DNA of 64,000 nucleotides from an uncultured Pelagibacteraceae bacterium (lineage in GTDB: Bacteria > Pseudomonadota > Alphaproteobacteria > Pelagibacterales > Pelagibacteraceae), in contig CACPJP010000003.1 in the NCBI GenBank assembly GCA_902634325.1, positions 28,790 to 92,789 on the forward strand, given 5' to 3'. A program made the position numbers and the translations under genes. The notes beneath the pieces are model-generated. The model saw only the letters and a list, made by a program, of their open reading frames with translations, searched no databases and was not told where the DNA came from. How positions within the stretch are numbered: position 1 is the stretch's first letter; every line of letters starts with the position of its first letter. Shown here piece after piece: positions 17,399 to 55,597 of the stretch.

Positions 17399-18529
17399 TT
17401 AATAAAAAATTCCTTTATTAGATAAATTTAAACTTAAATCTTTTAAAAATTTAAACTTATTTATATCTCTCAAAATTAAACTTTTTACAGGAGCTGCAAT
17501 TTTATTATCACTAAAAAATTTATTGATAAAGTCAATGCCAATACCAAAAAGAAAATTCTCAGGTTTTCTTAAGCTAACAAAATTATTAAAAATTTGTGAG
17601 TCCTTTAGTTGCATTCCAATAGACAAAAGGTTTTTAATTTCTTTGTTTAGAGTTTTTATATCTCTCAAAATTAAATTGTAACCTTGGCCTGCGATAGGAT
17701 GAACACTGTATGATCCTTCGCCTAAAATCAAAATGTTCTTTTTGGTATAGCTAACGCTCAGCTTGAGAGAGATAGGAAAAAAGTCAATTCTAGAAAAATT
17801 AAATATTTTTTCTACACCTAAAATAATTTTTAGTTTTTGCCTAACTAGGTTATTAATATTTTTTAAATTAAATTTTCTATTAAGACTCCAAACCAATGAA
17901 AAGGAATTTTTGCTTACAGGCAAAACAGCTAGCGGTCCTTCTTTAAAAAAATATTGACTCGGATTAAGATTTTTTAAATTATGTTTTACAACTGTTGTGA
18001 GAGCAATTTGTCGTGTATCATTCTGCACATATCTTTTGCCAATTAAATCATTAACCATATTTGATCCTTTGCCCGTACAAAGAAAAATGGAATCATAAAT
18101 TATTTTATTTTTTCCAAATAAGATGCCAGAACTATTAAGGTCTATCTTTTTAGTTTTTTTTTTTAAAATTGTAATGTTCTTACTTTTTTTAATTTTCTTT
18201 TTTAATAAAAATTTTAGTTTGTTATTATCTATAACATACATTAAATTTTTACCCTCATCCTCGAAGCTCATAAAATTTTTACTTACGCCCGATATTTCGT
18301 GATAAAGATTAATTTTGTTAGATGGCCAAAATAATTTAGCATTTTTATCTCCTAAAAATTTTAACAAAAAATCATAATTGCTTCGTGACAATGCCGTAGT
18401 TCTTTTGTCTTTTGGGTTTTTTTCAAAATTGGGAGCTACTAAATCTATTTTTAAATTTAGTCTGCTCAAAATGAAAGCAGTTGTTAAACCGGTCAGCCCA
18501 TCTCCAACAATACAAATTTTTTGTTTCAT
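17399..18529 (-). CDS. FAD-dependent monooxygenase, UbiH/VisC-like
   Basis: ICIVGDGLTGLTTAFILSRL and ILGEGSYSVHPIAGQGYNLILRD motifs. Confidence 0.83.
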   Translation of the reverse strand: MKQKICIVGDGLTGLTTAFILSRLNLKIDLVAPNFEKNPKDKRTTALSRSNYDFLLKFLGDKNAKLFWPSNKINLYHEISGVSKNFMSFEDEGKNLMYVIDNNKLKFLLKKKIKKSKNITILKKKTKKIDLNSSGILFGKNKIIYDSIFLCTGKGSNMVNDLIGKRYVQNDTRQIALTTVVKHNLKNLNPSQYFFKEGPLAVLPVSKNSFSLVWSLNRKFNLKNINNLVRQKLKIILGVEKIFNFSRIDFFPISLKLSVSYTKKNILILGEGSYSVHPIAGQGYNLILRDIKTLNKEIKNLLSIGMQLKDSQIFNNFVSLRKPENFLFGIGIDFINKFFSDNKIAAPVKSLILRDINKFKFLKDLSLNLSNKGIFY

Positions 18530-19542
18530 CTTTTTCTTTCCCTTAGAATTTTTATAACATACTCAATTATTTCTGGCTTGGTTTCTGGTATAACCCCATG
18601 GCCTAAATTAAATATGTAAGGATAATCTGAAAATATTGTAATAAATTTTTCAACATTTTTTTTTATATTTTCTTTTTCCGTTAAAAGAATTTTAGGATCC
18701 ATCCCCCCCTGTATTGGAATTCCGTTTACTTTATCTTTTATCCAACTTGGATCAATTTCATAATCTATACTGATACAGTCCGGTTTAACTATGGAACAGA
18801 AATTTATATAATTATTTTTAATTCCTCTTGGAAAACAAATTGCGGGTATTTTGGATTTTTTAATGTGTTCTACAATTTTTAAAGTAGGCATATAACAATA
18901 ATTTTCTAGTTCGTTGCCCGGCAAGAGATTTGCCCACGAATCAAATATTTGTATAACATTTGCTCCAGCTTCTATTTGTTTGTCGACATGTAAACAAATT
19001 GCTTCTTCAATTTTTTTTAAAATTTTGTTAGATGCAGACTTATTTTTATTAATATAATTTATATCAAAATTTTTTTTGGGGGACTCGCGATTCATCATAT
19101 AAACCAATAAAGTCCAAGGAGCGCCCACAAATCCTATTAGGTTTTGATTTTTTATTTTCTTTTTTACCTTTCTTATTCCTTCATAAACCGGGGATAATTT
19201 CTTTATAAATTCATTGTTATTGGTATTAATTATTTTATCTATATTTAAATTTCCCAATTTAGGGCCAAAATTCTTTTTGAACTCAACTTCCTGATTTAAT
19301 CCATAAGGTATCATCAAGATATCAGAAAATATTATTGCTGCATCAAGATCAAATCTATTCATTGGTTGTAAAGTTATGTCGGTTACTAAATCAGAGTTTA
19401 AACAGAGTTTAATAAAATTTTGGTTTTTTTCTCTTATTTTTCTAAATTCTGGTAAATATCTTCCTGCTTGTCTCATAAACCAAACGGGCATTAAAGAAGA
19501 ATTTCTATTTAGTATACATTCAGTTAGTTTATTCATTATCAA
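18526..19542 (-). CDS. hemE: Uroporphyrinogen decarboxylase
   Basis: MPVWFMRQAGRYLPEFR, GFVGAPWTLLVYM, FNLGHGVIPET motifs. Confidence 0.97.
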   Translation of the reverse strand: MIMNKLTECILNRNSSLMPVWFMRQAGRYLPEFRKIREKNQNFIKLCLNSDLVTDITLQPMNRFDLDAAIIFSDILMIPYGLNQEVEFKKNFGPKLGNLNIDKIINTNNNEFIKKLSPVYEGIRKVKKKIKNQNLIGFVGAPWTLLVYMMNRESPKKNFDINYINKNKSASNKILKKIEEAICLHVDKQIEAGANVIQIFDSWANLLPGNELENYCYMPTLKIVEHIKKSKIPAICFPRGIKNNYINFCSIVKPDCISIDYEIDPSWIKDKVNGIPIQGGMDPKILLTEKENIKKNVEKFITIFSDYPYIFNLGHGVIPETKPEIIEYVIKILRERKR

Positions 19543-19809
19543 TATTATAGTTTTAAATTATAAATGATGTAATAGGCCATGTTAGCTATAGAAAATGGTA
19601 TAATTTTCAACTTATATACATACTAAAAGACATATATTTTGCTTATAAAGGCGTATTTTGTTTCATTGTTCACAGTGTTAATTATTAATTATTAAATTAT
19701 AAACATATAATAACTTGTTTGTAGTTTGTTAATTTAGAGTGAATAAAAAATCAACTTTATGAATTTTTGTTAAAATTTGGTACTTATTATAGAATAATTC
19801 ACATAATTA
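19543..19809. other. Candidate chromosomal replication origin (oriC)
   Basis: 267 bp AT-rich non-coding gap between divergent hemE and PPSR-maf-aroE-coaE-dnaQ (the gene context of the Caulobacter origin); DnaA-box-like 9-mers at 19666-19674 (ttgttcaca), 19738-19746 (reverse strand ttattcact), 19795-19803 (taattcaca); AT tract ttaattattaattattaaattataaacatataataa. Confidence 0.65.
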
Positions 19810-20631
19810 ATGACAACAAAATATCAAATATTTTTAATATCCGACTCAACGGGGGAAACCCTAGATAGAATTTTCTTGGCATTACAATCTCAGTTTGCAA
19901 ACTTTGAATATGATAAAAAAGAATTTGTTTTCATAAGAACAGAACAACAAATAAATAAAATTATAAACGAATGTAAAGATAAAAAAAATTCAGTAATTTT
20001 ATATACCATTGTAGACACAAAACTTGCAAAATTTTTAGCAATAGAAAGTTTAAAAAATAACATTCCTTGCTTTGGGGTTTTAGGAAATCTAATCTTAAGT
20101 TTTTCAAAACTTCTTAACCAAAAAGCAACACACAAACCCAGCGCCCAACACGTTTTGGATGAAGCTTATTATAAAAGGATAGAGGCAATACAATTTACAA
20201 TGTCACATGATGATGGAAAGAAAAACGAAGATATTGAAATGGCAGATATAGTTTTGGTAGGAGTTAGCAGAACAAGCAAAACGCCAACATCGGTGTATTT
20301 GGCTAATAGAGGGTACAAAACATTAAATATACCGCTTGTTTCTGAACAAAAAATTCCTCAGCTTTTAGAGAAAGAAAACAAAAAATTTTGTGTGGTAGGA
20401 TTATTTGCTGATCCAGAAAGATTATCAGAAACAAGAAAAATAAGAGCAAACGTTAATCAGTCTATTGATTTAAAATCTTATACAGATGTAGAGAAAATTA
20501 AAATTGAAGTAGAAAATTCAAAAAAAATTTTTAAAAAATATAATTGGCCCACAATAGATGTTACTCGTAGATCAGTTGAGGAAACAGCAGCATCTATAAT
20601 TAAAATTTTTGAAATTAAAAAAAATAAATGA
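19810..20631 (+). CDS. Pyruvate, phosphate dikinase/PEP synthase regulatory protein (PPSR, DUF299)
   Basis: FLISDSTGETLDRI, LVGVSRTSKTPTSVYLANRGYK, DVTRRSVEETAASII motifs. Confidence 0.95.
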   Translation: MTTKYQIFLISDSTGETLDRIFLALQSQFANFEYDKKEFVFIRTEQQINKIINECKDKKNSVILYTIVDTKLAKFLAIESLKNNIPCFGVLGNLILSFSKLLNQKATHKPSAQHVLDEAYYKRIEAIQFTMSHDDGKKNEDIEMADIVLVGVSRTSKTPTSVYLANRGYKTLNIPLVSEQKIPQLLEKENKKFCVVGLFADPERLSETRKIRANVNQSIDLKSYTDVEKIKIEVENSKKIFKKYNWPTIDVTRRSVEETAASIIKIFEIKKNK

Positions 20632-33676: not shown

Positions 33677-34839
33677 AAAAACTTTTAGGAATCTTAGTTT
33701 TAAGTTTGTGTTTTATTAATACTGCTGCAGCAAATATTAAAAAACCAAAGATTCAAAACATTGGAGTAGTTTTTCCAATTATAGAAAATAAAAAATTTCC
33801 TTGTAGAGTAAATGCTATTTATACACCAATAAAACCAATAGAAGAAGTTAAGGCACCATCCGGATATGGTTTAGATGATAGATTTAACTATACTTACGAT
33901 CGTATAGAAAAAGTAAGTGTAAGTTGTTCTAGCGGTGATCTTAAAGCTTGCGAGTCTATATATAAAACATTATTAAGCTGGGCGGAATCAAATGCAGCCA
34001 AAAGAACAGGACCTTCTGATGAGGATGGAAGACATTGGAATGATACTTTGACAGTTAATTTATATGTAGCCGCTCCAATGATAACTGCATATTCTTTTGT
34101 AATACAAAGAATTGATATTCCCCAAGAGGAAGATAAAAAAATTAAAAAATGGTTAAAAAAAATAGTTAGAAGAAATCAACATCTTATGTATGATAAAACT
34201 TACGATTATGGAGGTGCACGAGGAATACCCAAGAGAGCCCATAACCATGCGCTTTCATCAGCTATGTCACATTTATCATTAGCAATTCTTTTAGGTGATA
34301 ACAAAACTTTTAAAAAACCATTTAAAAATTGGATAGGTGCTGTTAAGTACCAGCGTAAAGATGGAAGCCTTCCTATTGAAACCAGAAGAGGTGGAAGAGC
34401 AATGTTTTATCAAGGTAGAGCAATGACCGCACTTGCCACAATTGCCGTGATGGCGGAAAATCAAAATATTGATATATGGAATATGAAATTTAAGAAAATT
34501 AAAGACTATCATAACATTGTAAAATTTTTTGTTGATTTTGCTGAAAATCCAGAGATAGTTTTTAAGTATGCGAAGGAAAATAGGCATCCTGGTCCTGCTA
34601 AAGATTATAAAAATCAAGATTTAGATAGTAGCGGATCTGTTTGGGGTTGGGTTCCTGCATATGTAAGCAGATTCCCAAATCATGAAAATATAAAAAGAAT
34701 TAAATCTTGGAAAAAAGAAAATATGAACAAATATCAAAGATTAATGCGTAGTGCTCTGGATGGAGTTGGAACTAGCTATGTAGATTTTGCAGCTTCTTGG
34801 AACGTAGGGGCTGAACCAAATTGTCATTTTGTAAAATGA
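33673..34839 (+). CDS. Secreted alginate lyase-like (PL5/AlgL-type) protein
   Basis: Signal peptide; RAHNHALSSAMSHLSLAILLGD and DGSLPIETRRGGRAMFYQGRAM resemble AlgL motifs. Confidence 0.65.
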   Translation: MKKLLGILVLSLCFINTAAANIKKPKIQNIGVVFPIIENKKFPCRVNAIYTPIKPIEEVKAPSGYGLDDRFNYTYDRIEKVSVSCSSGDLKACESIYKTLLSWAESNAAKRTGPSDEDGRHWNDTLTVNLYVAAPMITAYSFVIQRIDIPQEEDKKIKKWLKKIVRRNQHLMYDKTYDYGGARGIPKRAHNHALSSAMSHLSLAILLGDNKTFKKPFKNWIGAVKYQRKDGSLPIETRRGGRAMFYQGRAMTALATIAVMAENQNIDIWNMKFKKIKDYHNIVKFFVDFAENPEIVFKYAKENRHPGPAKDYKNQDLDSSGSVWGWVPAYVSRFPNHENIKRIKSWKKENMNKYQRLMRSALDGVGTSYVDFAASWNVGAEPNCHFVK

Positions 34840-35270
34840 ACACATATTTATTATTTAAATCTCTTCATTTAATTGCAGTCATATCCTGGATGGCTGGCTT
34901 ATTATATTTACCAAGAATTTTTGTGTACCATGTTGAAAATTATGAAAAGAAAGAAACTCTAGATATTTTTGAAACTATGGAAAGAAGACTTTATAATTAC
35001 ATAATGAGACCAGCAATGCTCTTTGCCTGGATATTTGGGATTGTCTTAATTTATTTAAATGGTCTAGATGTTTTGGCTAATTTATGGATCCAAATCAAAC
35101 TTGCTTTAGTAATTCTTTTGTCTATTTATCATGAATATTTAGGCAAATGTCTCAGTCAGCTTAAAAATAGAACAAACACAAAAAGTGCTAAATTTTATCG
35201 TTATATAAATGAGGTCCCAACCGTGTTGCTTATAGCTATAATATTTATCGTGGTTTTTAAGCCTATTTAG
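34821..35270 (+). CDS. hemJ: Protoporphyrinogen oxidase HemJ
   Basis: LLFKSLHLIAVISWMAGLLYLPRIFVYH signature. Confidence 0.93.
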   Translation: MSFCKMNTYLLFKSLHLIAVISWMAGLLYLPRIFVYHVENYEKKETLDIFETMERRLYNYIMRPAMLFAWIFGIVLIYLNGLDVLANLWIQIKLALVILLSIYHEYLGKCLSQLKNRTNTKSAKFYRYINEVPTVLLIAIIFIVVFKPI

Positions 35271-35333
35271 ACTTGAATATTAATTTTAAATCACTATATT
35301 AGTACTTACTTACCTTAATAAACAATAATCACT

Positions 35334-36605
35334 ATGAATTTACAGGAATTGAAGCAAAAATCGCCATCCGAGCTAATATCTAAAGCTGAGAAACTTGGTA
35401 TTGAAAATCCAAGCACATTAAGAAAACAGGAAATTCTTTTTTCTATCTTAAAAAAGTTAGCTGAAAAAAATGAACAGATCACCGGCGGAGGGGTGTTAGA
35501 AGTTTTACAAGACGGTTTTGGCTTTCTTAGAGCAATAGAGTCAAATTATCTTCCAGGACCCGATGATATTTATGTAAGTCCTAGCCAGATAAGGAAATTT
35601 GGTTTGAGAACAGGAGATTCTGTAGAAGGAGAAATTAGAGCACCAAAAGACGCCGAAAGATACTTTGCTTTATTAAAAGTAAGTCAGATCAATTTTGAAA
35701 CTCCGGAAAAAGCAAGAAATAAAATAGCATTCGATAATTTAACCCCGCTTTATCCAGACAAGCAATTAAAAATGGAAGTGGAAAAAAATACAACAGAAAA
35801 AAAACCAGACCAAACTGCAAGATTAATTGATCTCGTGAGTCCAATTGGAAAAGGACAAAGATCACTTATAATTTCACCACCAAAGGCAGGTAAAACAATT
35901 ATTTTACAAAACATTGCAAACTCTTTAGAGGTAAATCATCCCGAATGTTATTTGATGGTTCTATTGATAGATGAGCGACCAGAAGAAGTCACAGATATGC
36001 AGAGAACAGTAAAGGGAGAAGTAATAAGTTCTACTTTTGATGAGCCAGCTTCAAGACACGTTGCTGTTGCAGAAATGGTTATAGAAAAAGCTAAAAGATT
36101 AGTAGAACACAAAAAAGATGTAGTTATTTTGTTAGACTCAATTACTAGATTAGGAAGGGCTTATAACGCTGTAGTTCCAAGTTCAGGAAAAGTGTTAACC
36201 GGGGGTGTTGATGCAAATGCACTTCAGCGTCCAAAAAGATTTTTTGGAGCCGCAAGAAATGTTGAGCAAGGAGGATCTTTAACTATTATATCGACTGCTT
36301 TAATAGATACTGGAAGCAGAATGGATGAAGTAATCTTTGAGGAATTTAAAGGAACAGGTAATTCAGAATTAATTCTAGATAGGAAAATTGCAGATAAAAG
36401 AATTTATCCTGCAATTGACATAACTCGTTCGGGTACTAGAAGAGAAGAACTTCTATTCAAAAAAGAGGATTTATCCAAAGTTAATGTCCTTAGAAGAATT
36501 ATAAGCCCAATGGGTACCATGGATGGAATAGAATTTTTAATGTCTAAACTTAAAAATACAAAGAATAATGCAGACTTTTTTGTTTCAATGAATAAGCCTG
36601 GATAG
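35334..36605 (+). CDS. rho: Transcription termination factor Rho
   Basis: [42 protein letters not shown]. Confidence 0.98.
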
Positions 36606-38499: not shown

Positions 38500-38870
38500 T
38501 TTTGTAATTCTATAAATTTTCCTTTAAATATACTTTCGCAGTTATAATTCTCTTCTATTAAGGATAACGTATATTTTGATTTTTCATCAAATTTTATTGG
38601 ATAATTAAATTCAATTATTCTTTGATAACTATACATATCATTTCTTAAACTTTTGCTTAAATTAAATTTTTGAATTTTATTAGAAATTAATATTTCATTT
38701 GTTTCAATTATTGCTTTAGGTAACACATGATTTATATGAGAATTTTTTTTAAATGGATTTTTTAAAACTTCAAATTCAAAATTACTTCTTTTATTCCAAT
38801 AGTAAAAAATCTGAATAATTCCTACTATAAAAAAAAAAGTTAATAATTTTTTATTTTTTAGATGAATCAT
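38490..38870 (-). CDS. Hypothetical protein with N-terminal TM (126 aa)
   Basis: ORF overlapping both neighbours by a few nt in the same direction. Confidence 0.55.
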
Positions 38871-39325
38871 TTAAATATTAATCCTTCAAATTTTAGTAAT
38901 TTTTTTTTTAATTTTGTTCCTCCTGGGGCTGAGAAACCACCTAAAGTGCCATCTGACTTTAAAACTCTATGACACGGAACAATTAACACATGTTGGTTTT
39001 TTCCACAGACTCTGCCCACATATCTTGGTGAAACTTTTAATTTTTTTGCAATTTCTCCATAACTTTTTGTTCTCCCTTTTTTGATTTTTTTTAATTCTCT
39101 CCAAATTTTTTTTTCAACAGTTTTTCCTTCAACTTTAATCTTTCCATCTATTATCTTTTTTTTATTTTTAAAATACAAAATTATATTTTTTTTAATTTTT
39201 CTTAACTTTTTAGTTTTTTTTCCTTTATTTTTTTCCTTTTTAAACTGAATCTTCGTTATAAAATTTTTATTTTCAGAAACCGAAATCCATCCAAATCTGG
39301 TATTGAAAGATATTATATTTTCCAT
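38867..39325 (-). CDS. Methylated-DNA--[protein]-cysteine S-methyltransferase
   Basis: [32 protein letters not shown]; start set to the Met of [13 protein letters not shown] rather than the longer tracked ORF. Confidence 0.9.
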
Positions 39326-39332
39326 AACTATT

Positions 39333-40178
39333 TCAGTTGTTTTTAACCAAATAATATCCCCACAATATAAAAGTGTCATTATTTTTTGAATCAAATTCTT
39401 TTGAGATTTTATTTGGCGGTTTTCCTATATTACCCTTTATTGTTTGATTAATTGAAAAATTAAAGCTCTCAAACAATTTTTTATATTCATAGTGTCTTAA
39501 TCTATTTTGATAAAGGTAATTATTATTATATTTTTTCCATTCATCCTTGGAATATTTTAAAAAATTCAAGGCAGATATATTTTTGTCAGTGTGGCTATAA
39601 TGATCGCTATAATCTATTAAAGACGAAATATAACCATTTTTTTTTATTATCTTTTTTAAATTACTCAAACACGAATGAAGATCTCTTGGCGAAAAGTGTT
39701 CAAGAGTAGCGGTATTAATGCACATATCAAAAAGCTCTTTTTCATCTACTAGTCTTTTAAGATCAAATGGAGCTTTATATTCAATATTATAAATTTTTTT
39801 TATATCTTCGACACCATTTACGTCATCTTTTTTTTCCTTATTTAAAATTTTGGATATATGAAAATTGGCTTCATTAAATAAAGCAAAATCAATCATTTTA
39901 TTGATATCTATTACTGTTTGTTTGATTTTGTTCTCAAAAATATATGAGAAAAAAATATTTTGTTCTAGTGATTTTCCAGCACCAATTTCAATAAGAGAAT
40001 TAACTTGGAGTTTACTGATATTATTGCCATGCACTTCCCAATTTTTATTTATACTGTTTATGTTGATTTTTGATCTTTTTGTTATTAACTTTTGAACCAA
40101 ATAGAAGAATTTTTCTAACTTTAAAAAGTCGAATATTTTGTAAAGTAAGGACTTTGTCTTCCAATTTATTTGAAACAT
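39333..40178 (-). CDS. SAM-dependent methyltransferase-like protein
   Basis: [52 protein letters not shown]. Confidence 0.72.
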
Positions 40179-43495: not shown

Positions 43496-44134
43496 ATGAA
43501 CCCTAGTGAATCTAAAGTAGAATCAAAGCTAGTTTTAGCTAAAAATCTTAATTTTAATGATAAAAAGCTGGAACTTATCGAATTATTTGTACAAGAGGTT
43601 TTAAATTATAATCAAAAGTATAATTTAATCTCACGTAGCTCTGAAAAAGATATTTGGAACAGACATGTTCTGGATTCTGCTCAACTAGTTAAACATATAG
43701 ATCATAAAAATTTTAATAGCTTAGCTGATTTAGGTACAGGAGGCGGTTTTCCTGGAATTATGCTATCTATTTTTTATAGTGATATTTTCACGTTTCACGT
43801 GAAACTTTATGAAAAATCTAAAGTCAAAGTTAACTTTATTAAATCCATTATAGATAAATTAGGATTAAGAAACGTATATATATATGATAATGATTATCAA
43901 TCTCATATAATAGATACAGATTACATAGTTTGTAGAGCATTTAAGAAGCTACCTGAAATATTAAGAATTTCACGTGAAACTATGAAAAGGCCTCACAAAC
44001 TGATTGTTATGCTGGGAAAGAGTGCACAGGATGAATTAAATAAAGCTTCAAAGGGTATGATTTATAAGTATAAGCTAGTACCCAGCATCACCGAGAGTGA
44101 TTCAAAAATACTTTTAGTTGATGCTACAAAATAA
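43496..44134 (+). CDS. rsmG: 16S rRNA m7G527 methyltransferase RsmG
   Basis: YNLISRSSEKDIWNRHVLDSAQL, DLGTGGGFPGI. Confidence 0.95.
   Translation: MNPSESKVESKLVLAKNLNFNDKKLELIELFVQEVLNYNQKYNLISRSSEKDIWNRHVLDSAQLVKHIDHKNFNSLADLGTGGGFPGIMLSIFYSDIFTFHVKLYEKSKVKVNFIKSIIDKLGLRNVYIYDNDYQSHIIDTDYIVCRAFKKLPEILRISRETMKRPHKLIVMLGKSAQDELNKASKGMIYKYKLVPSITESDSKILLVDATK
43792..43805. promoter_or_regulatory. parS-like centromere site 1
   Basis: gtttcacgtgaaac perfect palindrome, 14/16 match to TGTTTCACGTGAAACA. Confidence 0.9.
43967..43980. promoter_or_regulatory. parS-like centromere site 2
   Basis: atttcacgtgaaac, 13/16 match to TGTTTCACGTGAAACA. Confidence 0.85.
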
Positions 44135-44137
44135 ATT

Positions 44138-44938
44138 GTGACTGGATCTATAATATCAGTAATAAATCAAAAAGGTGGAGTCGGAAAAACTACGACCGTT
44201 ATAAACCTAGCAACAGCTTTAGCAAAAAAAGGAAAAAAAATCTTAGTAATCGATCTGGATCCTCAAGGCAATGCCACGACTGGTTTGGGCAAGTCAAATA
44301 ATGATGAAGAGAAAAGCATCTACAATGTCCTTATAGGTAAGACATCAGCTCAGGGCGCAATTCAAGAAAGTAGTGTGCCTGGCCTGGACCTTATAGGATC
44401 AAATGTGAACCTATCTGGGCTAGAGGTTGAAACAGCAAATGATGCCAATAGAGCCTTCTTGCTAAAAGAGATTTTAAGCAAGGGAAATGAGTCATGTTTT
44501 AAGAAGTATGAGAATATTTTTATCGACTGCCCACCTTCCTTGAGCTTGCTAACGGTCATGTCTTTAGTCTCCGCAGATGAATTACTAATACCTCTTCAAA
44601 CAGAGTTTTTTGCATTAGAAGGAATCACACAGCTAGTTAAAACGATCGATAGAATAAAAATTAATTTGAATCCAGGACTTGGAATTAGAGGAGTCCTTCT
44701 TACTATGTTTGATAAACGAAACAAACTGTCGTCACAGGTAGATGTTGAGGCCAGGAAGCATTTTAAAGATAAAGTCTACAAAACTGTTGTGCCGAGAAAT
44801 GTCAGATTATCCGAAGCCCCATCTCACGGGATGCCATGTTTGATTTATGATAAAAATTGTTCAGGCAGCAAATCTTACATAAATTTAGCAGAAGAGTTTA
44901 TTAGTCAAAGCAATCAGTCTATGGGTAGTGCAGCATGA
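44138..44938 (+). CDS. parA: Chromosome partitioning ATPase ParA (GTG start)
   Basis: ISVINQKGGVGKTTTVINLATALA deviant Walker A. Confidence 0.97.
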   Translation: MTGSIISVINQKGGVGKTTTVINLATALAKKGKKILVIDLDPQGNATTGLGKSNNDEEKSIYNVLIGKTSAQGAIQESSVPGLDLIGSNVNLSGLEVETANDANRAFLLKEILSKGNESCFKKYENIFIDCPPSLSLLTVMSLVSADELLIPLQTEFFALEGITQLVKTIDRIKINLNPGLGIRGVLLTMFDKRNKLSSQVDVEARKHFKDKVYKTVVPRNVRLSEAPSHGMPCLIYDKNCSGSKSYINLAEEFISQSNQSMGSAA

Positions 44939-54943: not shown

Positions 54944-55597
54944 TTAAGCTTTCTTTGTTTTAATTGGTATTTTACGATTAGGATAACAAGTAGTACAGAT
55001 TTTACAAGTGAGGCCATAACACTCTCTTGCTTTACAATATTCTCTTCCATAATAAATTATTTGAAGATGAAGTTTATTCCAAGATTTTTTAGGAAATAGT
55101 CTTTTTAAATCCTTTTCAGTTTGAACAACATTTTTACCATTAGTTAAACCCCATCTTTGTGCCAAACGATGAATATGTGTATCTACAGGAAAGGCTGGAT
55201 ATCCAAATCCTTGAGACATTACTACACTTGCTGTTTTGTGACCTACACCTTGTAAATTTTCAAGATCCTTAAAATTTTTGGGAACCTTTCCACCATGTTT
55301 TTCTACCAATTGTTTTGAAAGCAAATATACACTTTTGGCTTTGTTTCTAAAAAAACCCAAACTTTTTATTAGCTTTTCAATTTTTTTTCTTCCCAATTTT
55401 ACAAAATGTTCTGGTTTATAATATTTTGGATATACGTTTTTAGTTGCTTTGTTTACATTAATATCTGTGGTTTGTGCAGATAGTGCTACAGACACTAATA
55501 GGGTAAACGTATTTTTATGTTTGAGTGGAATAGGAGTTCTAGGATAAATTTGATTAAGAATTTTTAATATTATTTTGGCTCTTTTATTTGTACTCAT
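54944..55597 (-). CDS. nth: Endonuclease III
   Basis: LQGVGHKTASVVMSQGFGYPAFPVDTHIHRLAQRWGL and Fe-S cluster CKARECYGLTCKICTTC. Confidence 0.96.
   Translation of the reverse strand: MSTNKRAKIILKILNQIYPRTPIPLKHKNTFTLLVSVALSAQTTDINVNKATKNVYPKYYKPEHFVKLGRKKIEKLIKSLGFFRNKAKSVYLLSKQLVEKHGGKVPKNFKDLENLQGVGHKTASVVMSQGFGYPAFPVDTHIHRLAQRWGLTNGKNVVQTEKDLKRLFPKKSWNKLHLQIIYYGREYCKARECYGLTCKICTTCYPNRKIPIKTKKA

Follow-up and report, generated by a model that had tools for sequence, protein, structure and literature searches.

The origin of Caulobacter crescentus (Cori) was mapped experimentally, and that of Rickettsia was proposed, at an identical gene junction, that of hemE and COG1806 (ppsR) (PMC1914354). 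Alphaproteobacterial origins have been recognised by a flank of hemE and/or COG1806, several DnaA boxes, CtrA sites, an IHF site, raised AT content, a shift in GC skew, and autonomous replication or measured initiation (PMC1914354). For the opening of the duplex, a layout of box, spacer and DnaA-trios is known as the opening system of B. subtilis, BUS (PMC8287927, PMC6669920), with a published rule that asks for three or more NAN trios no further than 16 bp from a DnaA box with two mismatches at most (PMC8287927). In the literature searched, no placement of the SAR11 origin at hemE-ppsR was found; prediction databases may already list one.

The DNA analysed here, referred to as the window, is a stretch of 64 kb. 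The SAR11 (Pelagibacteraceae) genome to which it belongs consists of 25 contigs, is 61% complete and yielded no dnaA. The gap between the divergent hemE and ppsR genes of the window is, in all likelihood, the chromosomal origin (oriC) of this bacterium; the location has comparative support, and DnaA binding and the opening site are inferred.

The hemE-ppsR junction in SAR11

The first-pass annotation had described the gap as the largest non-coding one of the window, with hemE pointing left and ppsR, maf, aroE, coaE and dnaQ pointing right, as in the gene neighbourhood of the Caulobacter origin, and had noted that hemE also flanks the proposed Rickettsia origin. The boundaries and gene directions proved exact (Table 1), the genes were identified by domain matches, and the hemE-ppsR junction agrees with the published one (PMC1914354). 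No true non-coding gap of the window is larger; two longer intervals were rejected as artefacts, in which the overlapping ORFs 54944-55597 and 38867-39394 had been dropped. In the ORF reading hemE starts with TTG at 19542; the in-frame ATG at 19536 is probably the start, which would make the gap 6 bp longer. With 19% GC against about 30% for the window, the gap is richer in AT. An Rfam scan of the window returned a single tRNA and nothing else, and a second BLAST match of the gap on the same contig (C3:19810) was discarded as a chance AT-rich match in an apparent cytochrome c maturation gene.

Both genes were found at 109 SAR11 loci; the divergent junction was present at every one of them, and they provided 101 distinct gaps for the analysis of conservation. 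At one of the loci (L058:8702-9727) HemE is 36% and PpsR 71% identical to the protein of the window, and it is possible that the hemE beside the origin was replaced there.

Flanking genes, several DnaA boxes and raised AT content are all found at this locus, and the proposed SAR11 origin belongs to the known alphaproteobacterial hemE-ppsR kind. It has the same two boundary genes as Cori, with an AT-rich gap and several DnaA boxes in both, whereas the window gap is shorter (267 bp vs more than 400 bp; PMC1914354) and lacks CtrA sites, no CtrA ortholog was found in a relative, and the SAR11 boxes have drifted to TTATTAACA-like sequences. Shared with the proposed origins of Rickettsia and Wolbachia are the hemE flank, the AT-rich gap, few and degenerate DnaA boxes and a GC skew of little use; unlike the window gap, those origins mostly retain CtrA sites, and the Wolbachia origin has lost the hemE-COG1806 junction, which SAR11 keeps (PMC1914354).

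Table 1. Coordinates of the candidate origin, its boundary genes, proposed elements and parS-like sites in the window
Feature	Position	Strand	Sequence, match or remark
oriC candidate, intergenic between divergent hemE and ppsR	19543..19809	.	267 bp, 19% GC; 254-291 bp in 109 SAR11 loci
hemE, left boundary gene (ORF)	18526..19542	(-)	TIGR01464, E 4.1e-98
ppsR (DUF299/COG1806), right boundary gene (ORF)	19810..20631	(+)	PRK05339, E 9.9e-91
Two putative DnaA-trio units, TAA-TAG	19570..19575	(+)	3'-GAT-AAT-5'; inside most conserved 9-bp windows; frame control
GC-rich spacer between box 1 and trios	19576..19579	.	GCCA, 4 bp
DnaA box 1, weak; proposed platform of the opening element	19580..19588	(-)	TAGCTAACA; TTATTAACA or TTATTCACA in other genera; aligned position
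DnaA box 2	19612..19620	(+)	TTATATACA; TTATCTACA in most of genus
DnaA box 3	19666..19674	(+)	TTGTTCACA; exact TTATACACA in several relatives (alignment)
DnaA box 4	19697..19705	(+)	TTATAAACA; TTATTAACA in relatives (alignment)
DnaA box 6	19738..19746	(-)	TTATTCACT
DnaA box 7	19795..19803	(+)	TAATTCACA; ATCCACA core in many relatives; exact TTATCCACA in two gaps
Two parS-like palindromes, at 43794 and 43969	43791..43981	.	TTCACGTGAA; inside rsmG, just upstream of parA (ParA family match)

Strand signals, inversions and the position of dnaA

In many bacteria the origin is usually located in the neighbourhood of dnaA, and the hemE-ppsR gap might accordingly consist only of divergent promoters and chance DnaA-like 9-mers, with replication starting beside dnaA. 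In relatives of the window's genome dnaA lies 63-85 kb from the gap: three genera, the window's own included, have it on the ppsR side (70-85 kb), and two have it on the hemE side (63-64 kb). SAR11 DnaA is full length (TIGR00362, E 7e-141) with the signature DHTTVIHA.

Four closed relatives, each of a different genus, supplied the strand signals, through sampled stretches that make up about 38-47% of each genome. When these were pooled, the third-codon-position (GC3) skew, corrected for gene direction, switched sign at the gap, with a side effect of t=10.0 at the gap itself, a best value of t=10.2 at +5 kb and a drop to about 7 at +/-60 kb. Of the coding DNA, 63% points outward from the gap, and the maxima of both signals lie within about 20 kb of it. 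The expectation formulated earlier, that the skew minimum should fall here and not elsewhere, e.g. at dnaA, was upheld by these pooled signals. Taken singly, two of the four relatives (G003 and G040) display little replication skew. The published mark of a GC-skew shift (PMC1914354) is present in the pooled relatives and not significant in the window alone, where the change over -39.5 to +44 kb amounts to 0.015 +/- 0.015 even after correction; raw GC skew of the window was set aside as an origin marker, being uninformative in that it tracks gene direction. A skew centred on dnaA is likewise positive (t=8.7), as is expected with dnaA lying so close to the gap, at a distance of about 5% of the genome, but the gap fits better, with t=10.0 vs 8.7 and outward coding of 63% vs 59%.

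Inversions in bacterial chromosomes are known to be biased towards symmetry about the origin (PMC5850607, PMC9584773). In six inter-genus comparisons, which share genomes and do not represent six independent events, the median axis of inversion was displaced from the gap toward ppsR by 4.0 to 7.9 kb, with 19 to 110 inverted genes per comparison and a collinear core surrounding the gap. That dnaA swaps sides between genera while the inversions centre 4-8 kb from the gap, and that the enrichment of boxes in the 101 gaps far exceeds shuffles, leaves an origin adjoining dnaA very improbable. Even slightly less credit is given to the gap as an ordinary divergent promoter region, the signal of which would reflect the shared ancestry of close sequences: the 101 gaps are indeed not independent, because all come from one family, but inversion symmetry and the switch in skew and gene direction derive from separate data, and even diverged genera with HemE identities of 50-60% have retained box positions and gap length. 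The hemE-ppsR gap is preferred as oriC, with high confidence.

The parAB-parS locus, previously reported about 24 kb from the gap, was recovered at that distance, with parA starting at 44138 and the parS-like palindromes upstream of it. In G003 the counterparts of the genes of the parS/parA region are found on the hemE side of the origin. The homologs of a further part of the window (~34800-36600, +15 to +16 kb) are inverted in G005, G003 and G040 and located 2-3 kb across the gap, beside hemE; this small block has crossed the origin. The use of dif as a marker of the terminus was dropped, Pelagibacter having been reported to lack dif/Xer (PMC2731167).

DnaA boxes and the putative opening element

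At up to one mismatch, TTATNCACA was found at five sites of the window gap, where 1000 dinucleotide shuffles gave an expectation of 0.91 and a printed P of 0.000; these sites form the densest cluster of their kind in the 64 kb; an exact TTATNCACA is absent from the gap of this genome. Over the 101 gaps it averaged 3.68 per gap vs 0.77 expected (one mismatch), and TTATTAACA 1.09 vs 0.06; DnaA boxes in SAR11 gaps stand at 3-7 times chance. When the DNA sampled from each of the four closed relatives was ranked by density of boxes, the gap came first, first, joint first and second. The three DnaA-box-like 9-mers at 19666, 19738 (reverse) and 19795 are present as annotated, and two equally good ones at 19612 and 19697 can be added (Table 1). 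Alignment of the gap across relatives, suggested earlier as a check, revealed conserved positions and often better boxes in the relatives. Within the genus, conservation was 0.88 in box columns vs 0.74 in the remainder of the gap, a comparison that leans toward the boxes because those averaged were picked by eye from the alignment.

In the origin of B. subtilis the box is oriented toward the trios, as box 1 would be here. Within the genus, conservation over 9-bp windows of the SAR11 gap is highest for those that start at 19566-19569, at its hemE end. Of the 101 gaps, 74% have TAG and 87% have TAN as the first triplet at spacer 4 from box 1; further in-frame TAN peaks lie at 7, 10, 13 and 16, while the two remaining frames give 1-14%; the frame means are 0.50 vs 0.06 and 0.07, and every other box gave lower values. 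Box 1 was re-registered by local search for these counts, and the numbers were nearly identical without it. Trios thus occur in register with a box at fixed spacing, as in BUS (PMC8287927), and box 1, the 4-bp spacer and the in-register TAG/TAA trios are alike in both (PMC8287927, PMC6669920), whereas clean trios number just two in the window, its box 1 is poor, and its element may overlap the hemE promoter. Since box 1 shows five mismatches to TTATCCACA and only TAA-TAG follows, the window does not strictly agree with the published rule; other genera do, e.g. at L028, L031 and L023, and 3-6 consecutive trios were counted in relatives of other genera.

The unwinding element had been sought in the AT-rich segment 19678-19715, and this part of the first-pass annotation is not maintained: conservation and trio layout favour the hemE-proximal end, ~19567-19588, as the probable opening site. 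A competing explanation accepts the gap as origin but takes the TAATAG/box 1 block for the hemE promoter, with opening elsewhere, e.g. at 19678-19715, a segment nearly free of G or C. On the hemE strand CTAACA-17-TATAAT, a match of 10/12, does run across the block, but such promoter-like matches are no commoner than in shuffles (6 vs 4.3), and a promoter does not predict that TAN should recur every three bases in register with box 1, a pattern that survives in genera that have lost TAGG and is weaker at other boxes. We regard the promoter explanation as rather unlikely.

With the opening site at the hemE end, DnaA would bind AT-shifted boxes spread across the gap, box 1 and the GC-rich 4-bp spacer would steer it onto the TAG/TAA trios, the duplex would open toward hemE, and two forks would depart, one through hemE and the other through ppsR.

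CtrA, CcrM and the control of initiation

The CtrA site TTAA-N7-TTAA has no occurrence in the window gap and was found in 47 of the 101 SAR11 gaps, about twice chance. A relative in the same genus has four OmpR-family proteins, which include PhoB and an OmpR-like protein, and none of them passed the CtrA cut-off; Pelagibacter was reported without ctrA (PMC2877005). Such sites are not obligatory for an oriC at hemE-COG1806, as origins without them are included among those described (PMC1914354). GANTC (CcrM) sites number zero in the window gap and are below chance in relatives. An IHF site was given no weight, since its consensus carries too little information in DNA of 81% AT. With CtrA and its sites apparently absent, initiation is probably under simpler control than in Caulobacter.

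Tentatively, SAR11 may possess a minimal, CtrA-free alphaproteobacterial origin of about 270 bp, in which the boxes have drifted to TTATTAACA and the conserved element of box, spacer and trios overlaps the hemE promoter. If this overlap is true, initiation and the transcription of hemE could disturb one another. The CtrA-free layout would offer a test case for the minimum needs of an alphaproteobacterial origin. SAR11 are among the most abundant bacteria of the ocean, and estimating growth rates from read depth requires a correct origin position; an origin at hemE-ppsR and not at dnaA would fix the reference point for such estimates. Elsewhere in G040 (C1 ~208500, -151 kb from its gap) five DnaA-box-like sites are clustered more densely than in the gap of that genome, possibly as a regulatory site of DnaA, or by chance.
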